From contig PWMQ01000045.1 in assembly GCA_003558125.1 (NCBI GenBank), positions 1 through 64,000 of the forward strand: a stretch of 64,000 nucleotides of DNA. Direction: 5' to 3'. Below, piece by piece: positions 35,029-44,676 of the stretch. The translations under genes and the position numbers were made by a program. The first letter of the stretch is position 1, and the number at the start of each line of letters is the position of its first letter. The notes beneath the pieces were generated by a model. It did not search any database, was not told where the DNA came from, and saw nothing but the letters and a program-made list of their open reading frames with translations. This DNA comes from Natronospira sp. (GTDB lineage Bacteria; Pseudomonadota; Gammaproteobacteria; Natronospirales; Natronospiraceae).

Positions 35029-36867
35029 TCAGAATTCGGCGGTCACGCTGTCAGAACAGCGCGCGCCCTCGGCATCGCATAGCTGATACACATAACTACC
35101 GCCACCCTGGCCGCCCGGGACATCCGTGTAGCTGTCGGAATCATCCACCACGACCACCTCTTCGCCATCCCGGAAGACCACCGCAGTCTCGTCCTCCAGG
35201 CCAGTCCAGGACAAATCCACATGATGGCGGCCACGTACCCTGTAGGGGTCAAGCTCTAGCTCCACCGAGTCTGTATCGCCGTCGTCGCCCCCGTTACCAT
35301 CATCATCACCGTTGCCATTATCATCCCCGTTCCCGGGCTCCCCGCCGGAAGCAATGGTCTCCACCTGCCCGGTTCGGGAATTCAGGGCCATGTCGCGGTT
35401 GTCTGAATCCGCCAGGACATGAACCCGCAACCCACTCATGCCCAGGGTGGCATCCACGCCATTCTTGGAATCAAAGTTGGCTGCCTCTGCCTGGAACTCC
35501 GCCGAGCGGGCATTGATGAAGATGCTCGCCAGATCGGGCCCAGCCAGCAATTGATCCGGCACCTCGGCAGATCGCTCAACGGCACCGCTGACGCCATTGT
35601 AGTCATCATGAAAGAGCAACAAGCCCAGCTGGACCCGCCCATCCCCCAATGCGGAGAAAACCGTTTCCTGGCGATACCCCCGCTCCCCATCTTCCAGAGC
35701 ATGGGTGTGGCCGGCCGCTTCCAGAATCACGGTGCCCCGGGTGCTTTCCTCAAGCTCAAAGGGGCTGTCGAAAATGAGCCATTGGAAATAGTCGGCATCG
35801 TTCACAACGGCGCCATCCACAAAAAGGGCACCATCATTGGCAGGACCCTCGCCAACCGTATCCACGGACTCGGCATCAATCGGCGGGATGGCCTCGGCTT
35901 CATCAAAGCTCCATCGCCAGCCATCTGACAGCCGGTCCAGACGCACATCGGTATAGATCAATGGGCGACCGGGCTCCCGGACCATCTCGGTCTCCTGCAG
36001 GCTGGTAAAGAAGCTCACCCCACCGTGACCGATGACTTCCGCTTCACCCTCCTGAACCACAATGCCACTGTATTCCTCGATGCCAATACCCACCAGGCTG
36101 TCCGAGGCGCCATCGTCAATCGCCTTGGCATGAATACCCAGAAGACGACCCATTCGTCCCCGCCAGGTGTAATGCGTATCGACCACGGCATTGTCGAGGA
36201 AGGCCAGGAAATCTTCGTGGATGCCGCTGCCACCGTCCCGGTCATCCAGGTAGCTACTGTGGCTGTCGTATAGAACATCCGTGCTGATCATGTCCTGCCC
36301 CGAGGCATAGCTCAGTGAGGACAGACTCATGGCCCCGGCGCTGGTACCACCGATTGCACCGCCGGCGGCATGCACATCCCGAATATGGGACTCCAACAGC
36401 GTGCCTTTCCACCAGGTCACATACTCCCACTGGTCACCACCGCGAATAAAGATCACATCGGCATCGGCTACACCATCAACCACAGCGGGATCATCAGCCC
36501 GGTTGCGACTGTCAACTTCCACATTCTCGAAACTCACTTCTTTCCCGAGGGTGTCGCCAATCCAGACAAAGTATTCACCCAGCCAGTCCCTATCACTGGG
36601 GTTACTGGGGAAACTGGTCGCAAGGATGGCTACACGAACCACCCCGTCGCCGTGAATATCGCCGTTATCAAGCAACCGGGAATACAGCCCGTATGACCAG
36701 CTACTGGTATCTCCTACATCACCTTCAGCGCCACCGCCGGCAAGGACCAGAAGTGCTTCCCCGCCATTACTCGTCTCGCCATTGCCCGATGAGGCATCGC
36801 TTTCGGAAAAGCAGGCGGCAGAAAGCGCGAAAAATAGCGATAGGACAGCAAACTTAAGATAAGGCAT
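35029..36867 (-). CDS. Cyanophycinase-like (peptidase S51) lipoprotein with C-terminal beta domain
   Basis: A 612-residue predicted outer-membrane lipoprotein (lipobox SAAC, C19). Residues 35-290 match cyanophycinase: nucleophile S176 in GGTSAGAMS, H232 in DTHYTWRGRMGRL (CphB has DQHFSQRGRLGRL) and the glutamate E265 in GIGIEEYSG. A beta-rich region follows to about residue 500, then an Asp/Gly/Asn linker (about 510-530, GDDNGNGDDDGNGGDDGD) and a terminal 85-residue fibronectin-type-III-like domain with one cysteine pair. Cyanobacterial CphB is about 270 residues, so this is a much enlarged form. AGGAGGT precedes the ATG at 36867. It is the third gene after a TonB receptor and a permease. It probably cleaves cyanophycin or a related isoaspartyl polymer at the cell surface. 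Confidence 0.85.
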   Translation of the reverse strand: MPYLKFAVLSLFFALSAACFSESDASSGNGETSNGGEALLVLAGGGAEGDVGDTSSWSYGLYSRLLDNGDIHGDGVVRVAILATSFPSNPSDRDWLGEYFVWIGDTLGKEVSFENVEVDSRNRADDPAVVDGVADADVIFIRGGDQWEYVTWWKGTLLESHIRDVHAAGGAIGGTSAGAMSLSSLSYASGQDMISTDVLYDSHSSYLDDRDGGSGIHEDFLAFLDNAVVDTHYTWRGRMGRLLGIHAKAIDDGASDSLVGIGIEEYSGIVVQEGEAEVIGHGGVSFFTSLQETEMVREPGRPLIYTDVRLDRLSDGWRWSFDEAEAIPPIDAESVDTVGEGPANDGALFVDGAVVNDADYFQWLIFDSPFELEESTRGTVILEAAGHTHALEDGERGYRQETVFSALGDGRVQLGLLLFHDDYNGVSGAVERSAEVPDQLLAGPDLASIFINARSAEFQAEAANFDSKNGVDATLGMSGLRVHVLADSDNRDMALNSRTGQVETIASGGEPGNGDDNGNGDDDGNGGDDGDTDSVELELDPYRVRGRHHVDLSWTGLEDETAVVFRDGEEVVVVDDSDSYTDVPGGQGGGSYVYQLCDAEGARCSDSVTAEF

Positions 36868-36900
36868 AAGACCTCCTCGGCTCAGCCAAGGCTGTAACAC

Positions 36901-38427
36901 CTAGCTGAACCCAATCAAAACGGCTCCCACCATGAAGGCCATGGAAAGCCCCAATAGCAGCAGCACAAAAGGAACGATGAACTTGACCCACGTCCACCAG
37001 GAAACCCGGGCCACACCCAGAACGCCCATGAGCACCGCGGAAGTGGGAATAATCAGGTTGGTCACTCCGTCACCCAGCTGAAAAGCCAGAACCGCCACCT
37101 GACGGCTCACCCCCACCAGGTCTGCCAGTGGCGCCATGATGGGCATGGTCAGCGCAGCCTGTCCCGAGCCTGAAGCCACGAAGAAATTGAAGCCCGCCTG
37201 AAAGCCGAGCATGGACAGGGCCGATGCTATGGGGCCCTGCCCCTCCATGGCCTGGGACATGGCGTGCAGGATGGTGTTGAGGACCGAGGGCGAAGTGGGA
37301 TCATTGCCCCCGAGCACCACCAGGACCCCCTGGGCCATGGCCACAATCAGTGCCGCAGGCAGAAGCGCGGCAGCCCCTTCCTTGAAGGAGACCACTACGG
37401 CATTGGTATCCATACCGTTAAGTCGGGAGACAGTGGCTATCACGCCGGCGGCCAGCCCCATGGTGAAGAACTGGGTAGCAATCTCGGCGATGTAATAGCC
37501 GCGAGCCGTAACGCCCCAGACAATCCAGGCGATCCCCGCCACGAGCACCAGGATCACCAGACCATGGGCCACGGTGAAACGATCCGATACCTGTTCTTCG
37601 AAGCGGTCACGAAACCAGGCATTGGCCTCCGGCACCGGCGATCGCCCTGGATCAGTCTTGACCCGACGGGCATGCCACAGTGCAAAAAGGATCAGGGTAG
37701 CCGTGAACACTGTCCACAGTACGCCCCGGAATCCAGCACCCGATAACACCGGCACCTCGGCGATTCCCTGAGCAACCCCCACGCTAAAGGGGTTCATCCA
37801 GGAACTGCCGAAACCCACCTGGGTCGCCACATAGGTGATCAAAATGGCGGTCAGGACGTCATAGCCCAACACCACGATCAAGGGAATGATGTTCATGGCC
37901 AGGGCAATGGCTTCCGCCCCCATGCCGAAGATGGCACCCCCCAGAGAGAACAGGACCGTAATCAGTGGCAACAGGACCATGTCTCGACCCCGCATGGCCT
38001 TGACCACGCTGATCAGACCAGTCTGTATCGCGCCGGTACGCAGAATGATCCCGAAGGCGCCACCGATCAGGAGGATGAAGGCAATCACTCCCACGGCCGC
38101 GGAGTGTCTGTCACCTGCAACCAGCCCCTCGAAGGCAAAATTCAACAGCCCAGGGCTGCCCTCCTCATCACTGAACAGGCGCACACCGCGCCGGACCGGC
38201 TCGCCTTCCTCATCCTGAAGATATTGAAAGCTGCCGGGCACGACCACTTCCCGAGACCGCTCCACACCCTGCTGCTCATAGCTGACCACCCGGGTTTCCA
38301 AAGCGCCCTGGGGAACCACAAAGCTCAGCATCGCCGCTGCAATGACGATGAAGAACAGGATCACGAAGGTATCGGGAACGCGACTGGCCCCGGCCTGCGG
38401 TGTGACTGATGCGGCTGACTGACTCAT
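36901..38427 (-). CDS. YfcC-family inner-membrane permease
   Basis: A 508-residue membrane protein with about 12 hydrophobic segments, of the YfcC/ArcD-related family. Markers include PDTFVILFFIVIAAAMLSFV and FVVPQGALETR at the N-terminus, GMGAEAIALAMNIIPLIV in the middle and GDGVTNLIIPTSAVLMGVL near the end. Family members are annotated as C4-dicarboxylate, arginine/ornithine or short-peptide carriers; the substrate is not proven. It lies 33 bp upstream of the S51 lipoprotein gene and 54 bp after the TonB receptor gene. Its expected job here is moving released dipeptides or arginine/aspartate across the inner membrane. Confidence 0.85.
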   Translation of the reverse strand: MSQSAASVTPQAGASRVPDTFVILFFIVIAAAMLSFVVPQGALETRVVSYEQQGVERSREVVVPGSFQYLQDEEGEPVRRGVRLFSDEEGSPGLLNFAFEGLVAGDRHSAAVGVIAFILLIGGAFGIILRTGAIQTGLISVVKAMRGRDMVLLPLITVLFSLGGAIFGMGAEAIALAMNIIPLIVVLGYDVLTAILITYVATQVGFGSSWMNPFSVGVAQGIAEVPVLSGAGFRGVLWTVFTATLILFALWHARRVKTDPGRSPVPEANAWFRDRFEEQVSDRFTVAHGLVILVLVAGIAWIVWGVTARGYYIAEIATQFFTMGLAAGVIATVSRLNGMDTNAVVVSFKEGAAALLPAALIVAMAQGVLVVLGGNDPTSPSVLNTILHAMSQAMEGQGPIASALSMLGFQAGFNFFVASGSGQAALTMPIMAPLADLVGVSRQVAVLAFQLGDGVTNLIIPTSAVLMGVLGVARVSWWTWVKFIVPFVLLLLGLSMAFMVGAVLIGFS

Positions 38428-38481: not shown

Positions 38482-41235
38482 TTAACGACCAAAGGGCATG
38501 GTATACCGGAGCCAGTAGAACCGGCCCATGGTGGTGTGATTTACCAGGTCCACGTTAGCCGAGGAACCAAGCACCCTGGGCGGCTCATCATCAAGGATGT
38601 TGTCCACATGTAGCGAGAGCCAGGATTCATTGTCGAAATCAAGGCTCACGCTGCCATCCCAGCGGTTCCAGGAGGAGACACGAGCGAGATCCCCAATATC
38701 CGCCCGTTCGATGTCATCCTCGTAGGAGCCGGTATGGCGCAAAAGCAGGCCAAATTGCCATGGCCCGGTGTTCCATCTCGCCTCGGCATTGACCAGCATT
38801 TCAGGATAACGCCAGGTACCGGCAAGGCTCTCTTCCGGCTCGATGGTGGACAGACGGCGCTTGAAGGAATTGATCCAGGTCGCGTCCAGGAAAAGCCTTA
38901 GATTACCCGCCTGCCCCAGGTCGATTCGCTGCTCAATGGAAAGGTCCACACCATCGGTTTTCTGCTCACCCACATTGATGAGCTGGACAAAAACCTCCCA
39001 CAAGCGGCTTTCCAGATCGCCGCTCATGGTTTCGATACCCACGTTTCCAGGGCCAATCCCACCGGGTTCAGCGATAAGATCCGGATCGTTCAATGCATCA
39101 CGAAACACCACGGCATCGTCGATATCGACCAGATTGGTGTGCTCGAAACGCCAATAATCCAGACTGATGGTCAGATCATCCGTGGGGCTTGTCACGATGC
39201 CGAAGTTCCAGGAATCGGAGTCCTCCGCTTCCAGATCCGGGTTGCCGGTGATCTGGGACAGATAGGAGAGATCGTCGGCCTCGCCCTCACACCAATTGTC
39301 GAAAAACTCCGAATCCTCGGAACAGGGCAACGTCCCTGACGACAGGGTGATACCTGCACCCACCTGGGCCAGGGAGGGTGCCCGGAATGCCTGGGCCCAG
39401 GAGCCCCGCATCAGGAAGCGTTCATGGGGCTGCCAGCGGAAACCCACCTTCGGGCTGAAGGCACCGCTGAAGTCGCTGTAATGGTCGAATCGCCCCGCAA
39501 GCTGCATGTCGAAATTTTCAGCCAGGGGCACGTTGAACTCCGCATAAGCGGCGACCACATTCCTGTCCGCCTCCACATCCGTGGAACCGAATCCAAACAC
39601 GGGCACCTGGAAGTTGTCATCCGGATCGGCCGTTGCCAGAGGCGAAGGATTGTCTTCGGCATATTCATGCCGGAACTCGGCACCGAAGGCCGCCGACAAG
39701 GCGCCATGACGAAGGCTGGCCAGATCACCGGCCAGACTGAAGTCAATGCCGTAAAGGCCGGACTCACCGCGCCGGGGTACACGCTCTCGGACCAGGTCCA
39801 GGACTTCCGGGCTATTGGCATCCTGCCCACCAAAAGGGTTGTACCAAAGACCGTCCGTCTCGGGGTCACAACCCACACTGCCATCCGGGCAAAGTTCACC
39901 AAAGAGGCCGGCGCGGAACTTTTCCCGATTCATGATCCCGCTGATGGCTCGTTGCACGGAACGGTTACGGGCAACGGTCAGGGCGGTATCCCATTCCCAG
40001 TTGCCGTCGGTAATGCCGTCCAAACCGGTGACCAGACGCCAGGTATCGCTTTCCAAATCAATGGCGCGGGCTTCATTGAAACGCCCCCAGCCCTGGAATA
40101 GCGGATCGATACCGAACTGGTCCAGCTCATCGGCTCGCTCATCGATCTCTTCCTGAACGTCGGTGGGGATATCCGGGTGGTCCAGGGAAATGATCTCACC
40201 AGACCAGGGTGCCGGTGCCGAATTCGCTTCACTCCTGTTCTGCTGGTAGATGAAATCGGCATACCAGCGGGTGCGATCAGTGATGTCAAAATGAGCGAAC
40301 ACACCCCCACCAATCCGCTCGGTCGGTGGCACAGTGTCAGTGAAGGCATTGCGGTTGAAGGAGCAGAACTCCCCGAAACGTCCGACGTCCTGAAGCTCAG
40401 GAGGACAGCTTTCCTCAATGAAGTCTTCCTGGATCAAGTCAGGGTCCACATTGAAGCTTGGCCAGCGGCCCTGCTGAGAGGGAAACGGCTCTACCGCCGT
40501 AATGGAACGGTCACGGTCCCGGAGGGCGGAACGGTCATAATAGTCGATGAAGCCTGTCACATTGCCGTTTTCGAAGTTCCGGCCGAATGCCACATTGATA
40601 CTGCTCCGACTGTCATTGCTGCTCGCCGCCGAGTCACCATAGCCGAGCCTTACCTCACCGCCGTCCAGGTCATCGCGGAGAATCACATTGACCACACCGG
40701 CCACGGCATCCGCGCCGTAAATGGCTGAAGCGCCGGTTGCCAATACATCCACCCGGTCCACGGCAGCCATGGGGATGGAGTTGATATCAACAAATGATTC
40801 GCTTTGATTGGCGAAGGAAGCCACTGTCGTACGGCGTCCATTCACCAACACCAAGGTGGATGCGGTACCGAGACTGCGCAGGGAAACACCGGCAGCCCCC
40901 GCAGGACTATCGCCCGTCAATGTACCGCTCTGGGCCGTGGTGAAAGTCCCTTCACCGCCCCCCATCTGAGGTAGCAAACGAAGAAAGTCAATCAGCGAAT
41001 CCTGCCCGGAGGCATCCAGATCTTCGCGGTCAAAGCTGAGGAGAGGCTGCACACCCTCCAGGTCAACACCGCGAATACGGGAACCGGTCACCTGGACCCG
41101 CTCCAGCTCCGCCTGACTTTCATCATCGGTGTCATCTGTCTCTGCAACGGCTAAGCCGTTCGCTGTCGTCATCCAGGCAAGGCTGGCGAACACAGCTACG
41201 GCCAACTTTGTATCAAAAGCGTTTTGATTGCTCAT
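38482..41235 (-). CDS. TonB-dependent outer-membrane receptor
   Basis: A 917-residue receptor with a signal peptide (residues 1-31, ending LAVA). A TonB-box-like ERVQVTGSRIRG follows at about 45, then a plug domain with PAGAAGVSLRSLGTASTLVLVNGRR and GASAIYGADAVAGVVNVILR, and a 22-strand barrel ending TMGRFYWLRYTMPFGR. It belongs to the group with VTGSRI N-termini common in Xanthomonadales- and Alteromonadales-like bacteria, often used for peptides or glycans. AGGGGG precedes the ATG at 41235. It heads the operon receptor-permease-S51 lipoprotein and diverges from a second S51 gene and iadA, so isoaspartyl dipeptides are the likely cargo. Confidence 0.9.
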   Translation of the reverse strand: MSNQNAFDTKLAVAVFASLAWMTTANGLAVAETDDTDDESQAELERVQVTGSRIRGVDLEGVQPLLSFDREDLDASGQDSLIDFLRLLPQMGGGEGTFTTAQSGTLTGDSPAGAAGVSLRSLGTASTLVLVNGRRTTVASFANQSESFVDINSIPMAAVDRVDVLATGASAIYGADAVAGVVNVILRDDLDGGEVRLGYGDSAASSNDSRSSINVAFGRNFENGNVTGFIDYYDRSALRDRDRSITAVEPFPSQQGRWPSFNVDPDLIQEDFIEESCPPELQDVGRFGEFCSFNRNAFTDTVPPTERIGGGVFAHFDITDRTRWYADFIYQQNRSEANSAPAPWSGEIISLDHPDIPTDVQEEIDERADELDQFGIDPLFQGWGRFNEARAIDLESDTWRLVTGLDGITDGNWEWDTALTVARNRSVQRAISGIMNREKFRAGLFGELCPDGSVGCDPETDGLWYNPFGGQDANSPEVLDLVRERVPRRGESGLYGIDFSLAGDLASLRHGALSAAFGAEFRHEYAEDNPSPLATADPDDNFQVPVFGFGSTDVEADRNVVAAYAEFNVPLAENFDMQLAGRFDHYSDFSGAFSPKVGFRWQPHERFLMRGSWAQAFRAPSLAQVGAGITLSSGTLPCSEDSEFFDNWCEGEADDLSYLSQITGNPDLEAEDSDSWNFGIVTSPTDDLTISLDYWRFEHTNLVDIDDAVVFRDALNDPDLIAEPGGIGPGNVGIETMSGDLESRLWEVFVQLINVGEQKTDGVDLSIEQRIDLGQAGNLRLFLDATWINSFKRRLSTIEPEESLAGTWRYPEMLVNAEARWNTGPWQFGLLLRHTGSYEDDIERADIGDLARVSSWNRWDGSVSLDFDNESWLSLHVDNILDDEPPRVLGSSANVDLVNHTTMGRFYWLRYTMPFGR

Positions 41236-41719
41236 AAATCCCCCTGATCTCATCGGGATTCAAGGCCACCATCAGCCAGAGGCAGCTCTCCAGCTGTCAT
41301 CCGAACGCCCACTGCGGACAGAAGACGCAGCAGCATCCTGAGGGATGTAGGCGGTTTAGGGGATGGCGCGGGTCCGACTGGTGCCGAGAGCACCGGGCGG
41401 GAATGCACCATCAGGTCACTGCGTGACCTGACGATCTATTCGTCGAACCACTCGCTGAGATAGTGCGGCTTGTACCGATACGGCGACTTGCAAAAGCGGC
41501 CGTGGAAGGTAGCCAAGCCTGTCAGTGTCTGGATGGCCATTGTTTCAGACCGCTCCCGGGGTCATACTACCCACTTGGTCTTCTCCAAAGAAGGCTGGCC
41601 TTGGATTGGCCTCCCCTGCCAGCCTTCCCCTCAGACTATCCACGACCTTTTGCCAAAGTCAAGTCACTGTGTCGCCCAGGCGACACTGATTCACTGCAAT
41701 TGGACGGATGGGGAAGACC
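41236..41719. promoter_or_regulatory. Divergent control region of the cyanophycinase-like locus
   Basis: A 484-bp gap between the divergent arms of the locus. It holds three clear dyads: TCAGGTCAC-tgc-GTGACCTGA (41411-41431), AAGGCTGGC with GCCAGCCTT (41591-41626), and GTGTCGCC-ca-GGCGACAC (41669-41686), the last 33 bp before the S51 start. No gene is supported here. No regulator gene lies in the locus, so the binding protein must be encoded elsewhere. Confidence 0.55.
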
Positions 41720-43498
41720 ATGAAAACCCGCCAAAGGCTTGCATTCATTGCCTTCGCAGCGCTGTTGCTAACGGCCTGCGGCCCGCAGCCGTTGCAAGAA
41801 AACGACAACCCGAAAAATGACATTCAATGGTCACTGCTGCTTGCCGGCGGCAGCATCAGCCTGTGCTCCAGCCGCTATCGCAGCGCTTGCGACGATGAGC
41901 GCCGCGACGAGGCAGACTGGCCCACCAGTGCGCATACAGCGACGGTTTATCGACTGGACCGCAAGCGCCTGAAGCGGATTCTGGATCCTGCCTATTGGCA
42001 GGAAAAGCGGGAGCCGCAGAGGGCAAAACTGGAACAACGCCTGAAGGCCAGTCTGAAGAGCGGTAGCAGCGATTTTGCTCACAAGGAGCTGAGAGAGCTC
42101 ATTCCGGATGAGCTCAGCCCGCGAGAGCGGGACCGGGTCATCGATTTACTGGAAGCATTCAGCGAAGACCCGGCCCGGGACGGTGAACGCGCCCGGGAAT
42201 GGGTCAGCGCCGCCAACACTCGCGAGCACGAACGGCCTGCCATTTACCAGGAGTTTGTGGAAATGGCATCCGCGGTTTCCGGCAGGGATCAACCCAGGAT
42301 ACTGGTCTTCACTTCAGCCGCCCGAGACCCTCTGTCCGTGGTGGACTATTACCTGGGCGCCTTCGAACAAAGTGGCGCCGAAGCACGCTGGGCACCAACC
42401 GGCCCTGCGGTCCATGCCGCTACACGGGCCGGAGAATGCGACGACCTGGACCAATGGCGTGCCGGAGTCAGCAACGCCTGGAACCGTGCCCACATCTATC
42501 CTGACCTGGCCGCAAAGCAGACAGAGGCCTGCCTGAACCCCGACACTCTGACCTCTCTGATGGATTGGGCCGACGGGGTGTTCTTCAATGGCGGCGACCA
42601 GTCTCGACATCGGGCGACGCTGTTCAAGGATGAGCGCACGGCCGGCGCTGCCCTGACTCGACTTCGTGAGCGATTCCAGGCGGAGGCGTTGGTTGTCGGC
42701 GGGACCAGCGCCGGCACGGCGGTACAAACAGGGCAGGACATGGCCATGATTGCCAGTGGCACTCCGGAGGCCGCATTGCGCGGTAACATGGTGACATCGC
42801 CCCCACCCGCCCCGGATTGCGGCCTTCATGGTGACTGCCCGGAAGGCACTGATCCGGATACGCTGACCTGGCAGCAAGCGGGGGGCCTGGGCCTTTTCTC
42901 CTTCGGATTGCTGGATACCCATTATGGCGAACGGGGCCGTCCAGTCCGCTCCATTGCCCTGGCAGCTGCCACCGGCGCTGACCTGAGCTTTGGAGTCGAT
43001 GAGACCACAGCCCTGCTTGTGGGCCAAAGTCCTGGCGGAGACCGGCATTTTCATGTTCTGGGTGCCGCCGCTGCCATGATCATGGATTTTCGCGAGTCTA
43101 CGCTATCCCTGAACGAATCAGGTCTGGCCGCCCGCAATGTGTTACTCCACCGCCTGACATCGGGCAATGGGATGACAATCGATGCAAAGGGGCGTTTCCA
43201 CATTGCCCCGGAAAGCAGCACAGAACAGGCAAGCTGCGACTCACCATCTGACGCGGATCTGCTGGGCGATCAGGGCGTTGCGAAGATGGCCGGAAAACTC
43301 CGTTGCAGCAAGCAGGCTCGCCTGACGGCAGAGCACCATGCATCACCGCAGCGCTGGCAAATCGAGCTTGAAGAAATAGAGCAGACGCAGTGGTTGAGTG
43401 CGGATCGAAACCAACACGTCGGCTGGTACGGCCTATCCTTGTCCCTTGGCCCTGAATCTGCCGCCGACAGCAAACGTGGAAAGGAGGCCCGGAAATGA
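41720..43498 (+). CDS. Cyanophycinase-like (peptidase S51) lipoprotein with large insertion
   Basis: A 592-residue predicted lipoprotein (lipobox LTAC, C20). The first strand LLLAGGSISLCSS is separated from the second, PRILVFTSAARDP, by about 140 highly charged residues (about 50-190), an insertion not found in CphB. After it come GVFFNGGDQSRH, the nucleophile S330 in VVGGTSAGTAV, H401 in DTHYGERGRP and E428 in FGVDETTALLV, so the catalytic set looks complete. Six or more cysteines suggest periplasmic or surface disulfides. A GGGGAAGA ribosome site supports the ATG at 41720. Its stop overlaps the iadA start (ATGA), a tight functional link. It probably releases isoaspartyl dipeptides. Confidence 0.82.
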   Translation: MKTRQRLAFIAFAALLLTACGPQPLQENDNPKNDIQWSLLLAGGSISLCSSRYRSACDDERRDEADWPTSAHTATVYRLDRKRLKRILDPAYWQEKREPQRAKLEQRLKASLKSGSSDFAHKELRELIPDELSPRERDRVIDLLEAFSEDPARDGERAREWVSAANTREHERPAIYQEFVEMASAVSGRDQPRILVFTSAARDPLSVVDYYLGAFEQSGAEARWAPTGPAVHAATRAGECDDLDQWRAGVSNAWNRAHIYPDLAAKQTEACLNPDTLTSLMDWADGVFFNGGDQSRHRATLFKDERTAGAALTRLRERFQAEALVVGGTSAGTAVQTGQDMAMIASGTPEAALRGNMVTSPPPAPDCGLHGDCPEGTDPDTLTWQQAGGLGLFSFGLLDTHYGERGRPVRSIALAAATGADLSFGVDETTALLVGQSPGGDRHFHVLGAAAAMIMDFRESTLSLNESGLAARNVLLHRLTSGNGMTIDAKGRFHIAPESSTEQASCDSPSDADLLGDQGVAKMAGKLRCSKQARLTAEHHASPQRWQIELEEIEQTQWLSADRNQHVGWYGLSLSLGPESAADSKRGKEARK

Positions 43499-44676
43499 TG
43501 AAACTGCTCAAGAATTGCCGACTGCATTCACCGATGGATGAAGGCATGGATCACCTGCTGGTAGCCGGGGAGGTAATCGTCCTGCGCGGAGAACAGGCCC
43601 TGGCACTGGAGGGCTCTGGCGGTATTGAGAGCGCGGACATGGAGGGTCGCATGGTGATCCCCGGCCTGGTGGACTGCCATGCCCACATCACCGTCGGTGG
43701 TGGCGAGGATGGTCCGGAAAGCCGGGTGCCTTCAGTCGACCTGGGCGCATTCACCGCTGCAGGCGTCACCAGCGTGGTGGGACTGCTTGGTACTGATGAC
43801 CTGGTACGCACCACCGGTGAGTTGGTGGTCCGCGCCCGCGCTCTGATGGCAGAGGGCCTATCTGCCTGGTGCTACACCGGCGGCTATCATGTCCCGCCCG
43901 TGACTCTTACCGGCAGCATCCGCGCCGATATTGTTCATATCGATCGGGTCGTGGGTGTGGGCGAACTCGCCGTCAGTGACCACCGTTCCAGCCATCCCAC
44001 CGATCAGGAACTGATCCGCATCGCCAGCGAAGCTCATGTGGCCGGGCTGATGGCCAACAAGGCCGGAGTCCTGCACCTGCACCTCGGCGACGGCAAACAG
44101 GGCATGGACCCCCTGTTTCGGGTTCTGCGCGATTCGGATATTCCCGCCCGAGTCCTGCAGCCCACCCATATCAATCGCCAGCCTGCCTTGATGGATGAGG
44201 CAATGGAGGCTGCCAGACGAGGCTGTCACGTTGACATCACAGCCTTTCCAGAAGATCCAAGCCATGCTGATGTACCGGCCGCCGAGGCTCTGGCCCGTTA
44301 TCTGGATGACAACGGTCCCAGCGGGCGGATCAGCGTGAGTTCCGACGGCGGCGGCTGCCTGCCTCATTTCGATGACCACGGGCATTTGCACAGCCTGGAT
44401 GTGGGACGACCTGATTCCCTGCTATTAACGCTCCAGAAACTGTTGCGCAGTGGAAGGCCGGCAGAAACCGTACTGCCGGCCTTCACCTGCAATCCCGCCG
44501 AGCTGTTGAAACTGCCTCGCAAGGGGAGACTGGATGTAGGCATGGATGCAGATCTGGTCGTGCTCGAGGAGGACTATGCAGTGAGAGACGTGATGGCCCG
44601 GGGTCAGTGGCATTGGCGAGATGGTCAACAGCGTCTTTTCGGAACGTTTGAAAAACCGGGAAGAAAGACTGACTGA
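43495..44676 (+). CDS. iadA: Isoaspartyl dipeptidase
   Basis: A 393-residue cytoplasmic amidohydrolase that splits beta-aspartyl dipeptides such as beta-Asp-Arg, the product of cyanophycinase. Metal ligands are visible in VDCHAHITVGGG (H62, H64), LHLHLGDGK (about H196), QPTHINR (about H225) and SVSSDGGG (about D284). The bridging residue, a carbamylated lysine in E. coli IadA, aligns with E157 in GVGELAVSDHRSS. No signal peptide. The start overlaps the S51 stop by 4 bp, so the two are translationally coupled. A strong bidirectional terminator follows 11 bp after the stop. Confidence 0.92.
   Translation: MMKLLKNCRLHSPMDEGMDHLLVAGEVIVLRGEQALALEGSGGIESADMEGRMVIPGLVDCHAHITVGGGEDGPESRVPSVDLGAFTAAGVTSVVGLLGTDDLVRTTGELVVRARALMAEGLSAWCYTGGYHVPPVTLTGSIRADIVHIDRVVGVGELAVSDHRSSHPTDQELIRIASEAHVAGLMANKAGVLHLHLGDGKQGMDPLFRVLRDSDIPARVLQPTHINRQPALMDEAMEAARRGCHVDITAFPEDPSHADVPAAEALARYLDDNGPSGRISVSSDGGGCLPHFDDHGHLHSLDVGRPDSLLLTLQKLLRSGRPAETVLPAFTCNPAELLKLPRKGRLDVGMDADLVVLEEDYAVRDVMARGQWHWRDGQQRLFGTFEKPGRKTD

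Follow-up and report, generated by a model that had tools for sequence, protein, structure and literature searches.

The window analysed here is a 64,000-nucleotide stretch of DNA from Natronospira sp. (GenBank assembly GCA_003558125.1, contig PWMQ01000045.1, positions 1 to 64,000 of the forward strand). From left to right, it holds a second S51 protein gene, a transporter gene and a receptor gene on the minus strand, followed on the plus strand by the S51 gene that is the subject of this study and by iadA:

35029–36900, minus strand, second S51 protein, insertion-free, with its own GGTSAG and DTH motifs
36901–38427, minus strand, YfcC-type transporter (NF008611 above cut-off)
38482–41253, minus strand, TonB-dependent receptor (Pfam PF00593 and PF07715), with an orthologue adjacent in most relatives
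41720–43498, plus strand, insert-bearing S51 gene (CphE-like cyanophycinase), 592 aa, with a TIGR02069 match and a Foldseek match to CphB
43495–44676, plus strand, iadA, isoaspartyl dipeptidase (TIGR01975 above cut-off, E 3.5e-112)

The iadA gene is the sole copy above cut-off in the assembly. For cphA1 no match over cut-off was found in the assembly, an absence that is not final because the assembly is 90.7% complete, and Rfam has no RNA element in the locus. The second S51 protein carries an acidic GDDGNG-rich linker followed by an Fn3-like C-terminal region, and sits on a long branch of the tree.

The insert-bearing gene runs from an ATG at 41720 to a stop codon ending at 43498; an in-frame ATG upstream, at 41708, would give 596 residues. 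Its features, numbered from Met1 at 41720, are as follows:

41720–41779, plus strand, lipoprotein signal peptide with lipobox LTA↓C20 and Gly at +2, read by eye and by pattern
41834–41854, plus strand, first core strand LLLAGGS, residues 39–45, a strand in the model
41855–42229, plus strand, insertion domain, about residues 46–170, four main helices, charge-rich here, model pLDDT mostly 94–98
41864–41890, plus strand, C49-S-S-x5-C57, opening the insertion; no complete relative lacks either Cys
42197–42199, plus strand, Glu160, invariant in the insertion
42392–42562, plus strand, second, smaller core enlargement, about residues 225–281, with invariant C240 and C271
42707–42709, plus strand, Ser330, nucleophile of GGTSAG
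42914–42949, plus strand, D399-T-H401...R405-x-R407-x2-R410, catalytic His and substrate-pocket Asp/Arg, by correspondence to CphEal (PMC3235067)
43001–43003, plus strand, Glu428, third catalytic residue (GVDET)

Is this protein a cyanophycinase-like enzyme at all, as the first-pass annotation had proposed? The S51 core fold is clearly present. An AlphaFold2 model of the full protein (pLDDT 92.1, pTM 0.92), computed from an alignment of 64 sequences that left out rows from plasmid records, was matched by Foldseek to CphB (7uqv, 7uqw and 3en0) with a probability of 1.00 and TMt values of 0.75–0.79, and below E 0.001 it retrieved cyanophycinases and PepE-type dipeptidases and nothing else. When the PDB was searched by sequence with the window protein, cyanophycinases ranked first, and the family profile found 3en0 at 5.5e-24. 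Curated family models were less generous. TIGR02069, the NCBIfam model for cyanophycinase, scored 99 bits (E 2.9e-28) against a cut-off of 126.6, so that we call the protein CphE-like and not a TIGR02069 member. The Pfam S51 model (PF03575) reached 15.3 bits (E 0.017) against a gathering score of 23.9; its match is fragmentary because the model presumes an uninterrupted domain. Across the family, PF03575 was found at E ≤ 0.1 in 54 of 64 members, with a best value of 1.7e-9.

The catalytic machinery is complete. Ser330 in its GxSxG nucleophile elbow (GGTSAG), His401 (LDTH) and Glu428 (GVDET) form the Ser–His–Glu triad of S51 peptidases at exactly the positions originally assigned to them. The pocket points to the exported enzymes of the CphE type. 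According to PMC3235067, from which the pocket residues of both CphB and CphEal are taken, CphEal has a Thr where CphB has Gln173, and the residues listed there for CphEal correspond to Q294, S330, D399, T400, H401, R405, R407, R410 and E428 of the window protein. Thus the Gln, the Asp and the three Arg of the pocket (Q294, D399, R405, R407 and R410) are all in place, and T400, directly before the catalytic His, occupies the Gln173 position as in CphEal. Like the CphE enzymes of Pseudomonas anguilliseptica BI and P. alcaligenes DIP1 (CphEal), which are exported and use the same triad (PMC3235067), the window protein carries an export signal, here with the lipobox sequence LLLTA↓C20; by the +2 rule, it is probably an outer-membrane lipoprotein. 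The gene encodes an exported S51 serine peptidase, which we predict to digest cyanophycin.

What sets this enzyme apart is an insertion between the first and the second strand of the core. The strands themselves, LLLAGGS at residues 39–45 and ILVFTSAARD at 194–203 (with ILVFTS at 194–199), lie essentially where the first-pass annotation had placed them. The segment between them is indeed inserted, yet at about 125 residues (approximately 46–170) it is shorter than the 140 first proposed, since the normal alpha-1 helix (171–187 in the model) has to be subtracted. From GG44 to T198 there are 153 residues, as compared with about 31 in L086, a relative without the interruption, and the distance from the GG to the nucleophile amounts to 286 residues versus 107–137 in the S51 proteins used for comparison. 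The second enlargement follows strand 2 and precedes the nucleophile.

Structure prediction, which had been suggested as a check, gives the insertion as a folded unit, i.e. a confidently modelled helical domain. Its blocks have pLDDT values mostly of 94–98 in the full model, and modelled alone it still reaches a pLDDT of 91.5 and a pTM of 0.74. The main helices span approximately residues 81–87, 95–113, 121–127 and 134–144 (model positions are mature numbering plus 19). At its start, the C49–C57 pair probably forms a disulfide. A floppy charged tether is ruled out by these pLDDT values. A misreading of the normal S51 core is likewise ruled out, as alignment recovers the core strands and alpha-1 on both sides of the insertion, and it is further countered by an insertion-free sister in the tree, from Kitasatospora. 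Residues 46–170 are thus neither part of the core nor absent from relatives.

Neither CphB nor CphE has these approximately 125 residues between strands 1 and 2, in agreement with the original claim for CphB. CphB of Synechocystis PCC6803 (3en0/7uqw, with TMt values of 0.75–0.78) shares the core fold, the triad and the pocket, but it is intracellular, has DQH where the window protein has DTH, and lacks the insertion after strand 1, the enlargement before the nucleophile and the C-terminal extension. CphEal differs in having its nucleophile at Ser171 behind a 24-residue signal peptide, which leaves no room for a 125-residue insertion, and in not being a lipoprotein. Solved cyanophycinase structures in the PDB copy searched were insertion-free only. 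For the insertion itself, Pfam gave no family common to the members, and the PDB gave no match better than E 0.23 by sequence or E 3.4 by fold; viral relatives were found neither in phage records nor, by fold, in BFVD. No prior mention of the domain was found in the literature searched. The domain is real, conserved and previously unremarked in that literature, whereas the enzyme family and the type of locus were already known. The beta-rich extension beyond the CphB core (residues 460–592, positions 43097–43495) shows the lowest conservation within the protein, with 13% identity to relatives.

Relatives were collected by scanning genome contigs with two patterns taken from the core and none from the insertion, which yielded at least 79 loci. 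Every complete relative recovered has the insertion (about 77 gammaproteobacterial loci among the matches listed, plus Pseudoalteromonas plasmids). Among the matches listed, the complete gammaproteobacterial relatives share L-x-G-G-x(4)-C-[STAG]-[SN]-x5-C with its invariant C-x7-C pair, and C49, C57, E160, C240 and C271 are present in 80 of the 80 rows counted. Two Holophagaceae proteins matching at about 1e-7 only are without the insertion, and the insert-bearing gene was not found in the two congeneric genomes searched. When the tree was computed from sequences stripped of the insertion, a branch with support 77/69 set the 22 insert-bearing rows apart from the others, next to the insertion-free Kitasatospora cyanophycinase; the tree thus favours a single gain, with moderate support. 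The insertion evolves fast, its identity to relatives being about 23% as compared with 41% for the core.

In most of the relatives among the matches listed, the gap from the GG to strand 2 is 146–173 residues, but it grows to 248–374 in Vibrio, Photobacterium, Saccharospirillum, Natronospirillum and Reinekea. Ten loci (L056, L059, L064, L066, L068, L069 and L072–L075) have acidic insertions of about 244–370 residues. Parts of these long forms align with each other across relatives (L068 35–137 with L072 230–333, E 3.5e-5; L064 13–118 with L075 217–313, E 3.1e-4), and the short-form profile matches several successive stretches within them, although most single matches are weak. Together, these alignments suggest that the long insertions arose by tandem duplication of the helical module.

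An important question is what the insertion does. The first-pass annotation had stressed its richness in Arg and Glu, which is true of the window protein (15% R and 11% E) but not of the family (6% each on average). Charged residues make up 42% of the insertion here versus 26% in the average member, and this high charge is shared with Idiomarina but does not characterize the family; with family means of 13% K/R and 13% D/E, the window protein is the most charged of all. Since this richness is largely specific to one protein, the family is unlikely to share a binding surface built on charge, and given also the ordered nature of the domain, the proposal that the segment binds the arginine side chains of the polymer is not supported. 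A broader version, in which the insertion serves as a built-in cyanophycin-binding module that holds the insoluble polymer by pairing of its charged surface with Arg and Asp side chains, can draw on the high charge of the window protein, the invariant Glu160 along with the common Arg157 and Glu145, the very acidic duplicated insertions of Saccharospirillum and Vibrio, and relatives that keep the insertion without the nucleophile. We nevertheless consider it unlikely, as the charge of the insertion is not conserved and its sequence is much less so than that of the core. In an extended form, the insertion would be a new module with which secreted cyanophycinases handle the polymer; tandem duplication would have enlarged it in Saccharospirillaceae and Vibrionaceae, and it would have been kept in relatives without the catalytic Ser that act as cyanophycin-binding proteins, an idea that we regard as rather speculative.

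The relatives in question are insert-bearing proteins from Pseudoalteromonas donghaensis and P. lipolytica (L006/L081), with S330 replaced by G, from Idiomarina rhizosphaerae (L010), with S330 replaced by G and the catalytic His by E, and from Rheinheimera sp. D18 (L041), with S330 replaced by N and the catalytic His by Q. All of them keep both the arginine pocket and the insertion, and judged by these replacements they are likely pseudoenzymes or binding proteins. Since the domain persists where Ser330 and, in two cases, His401 are lost, it is not retained for catalysis only. This would also suit an element of dimerisation or stability that does not itself engage the substrate, as would an ordered, fast-evolving and disulfide-bonded domain, but the invariant Glu160 suggests something more specific, and we think this improbable. 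The insertion might also dock the enzyme onto the TonB receptor encoded next door, in a SusCD-like surface complex, a partner already proposed in the first-pass annotation. The lipoprotein signal and the divergent receptor gene that adjoins in most relatives speak for such docking. On the other hand, 20 of the 77 listed loci have no receptor, YfcC or IadA match within the flanking stretch (some stretches being short), six more, i.e. five from Vibrio/Photobacterium and one other, have an iadA/yfcC match but no receptor match in the flank, and many insert-bearing relatives lack a lipobox and look like substrates of signal peptidase I. A receptor may nevertheless be encoded elsewhere in those genomes. 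Docking is possible but not favoured, and we rate it as quite improbable.

Rather, we lean, with somewhat better than even confidence, towards a CphE-like cyanophycinase within a scavenging locus whose helical insertion was acquired once and probably caps or walls off the active-site cleft. Judged by fold topology, strand 1 leads into a loop on that face of the parallel sheet, its C-terminal edge, where the nucleophile elbow is also found; for an insertion at this point, a cap or wall is in our opinion the most likely role. The exported enzyme, probably an outer-membrane lipoprotein, would cut cyanophycin outside the cell or at its surface into beta-Asp-Arg dipeptides, which could enter via the TonB receptor and YfcC and be split by IadA into Asp and Arg. 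The domain of approximately 125 residues, disulfide-bonded at its start, would have been gained after strand 1 in the ancestor of the gammaproteobacterial subfamily and, positioned next to the cleft as its cap or wall, would shape access of the polymer and stabilize the enzyme outside of the cell.

Cyanophycin serves cyanobacteria as a major nitrogen store. A secreted insert-bearing subfamily that is widespread in marine Alteromonadales and their relatives would add a distinct type of enzyme for the environmental recycling of this polymer. Surveys that rely on the cut-offs of curated family models may miss it, as these models score the subfamily below cut-off.

With its cyanophycinase, isoaspartyl dipeptidase and transporter genes clustered and cphA1 without a match over cut-off in the 90.7% complete assembly, the locus matches the cyanophycin-scavenging clusters of the literature (PMC10206079, PMC3400609). 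According to PMC10206079, which relays Ben Hania et al., a cyanophycin utilization locus combines a cyanophycinase gene with iadA and a transporter in genomes without cphA1; compared with the locus outlined there, the present one includes a TonB receptor as well as YfcC, and it has a pair of S51 proteins of which one bears the insertion. In Citromicrobium, a TonB receptor beside a cyanophycinase gene was predicted to serve cyanophycin uptake (PMC3400609); this is an alphaproteobacterium, and the insertion is not reported there. Conservation in orthologues beside iadA, another suggested check, was borne out, with iadA, yfcC and the TonB receptor gene in the flank of 43 of the 77 listed loci. 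In Pseudoalteromonas, the iadA–yfcC–receptor set is divergent from the cyanophycinase gene. In Pseudoalteromonas xiamenensis (L005, 9970–11343), an insertion-free S51 gene directly follows the insert-bearing one, so that pairing of both S51 types occurs elsewhere.
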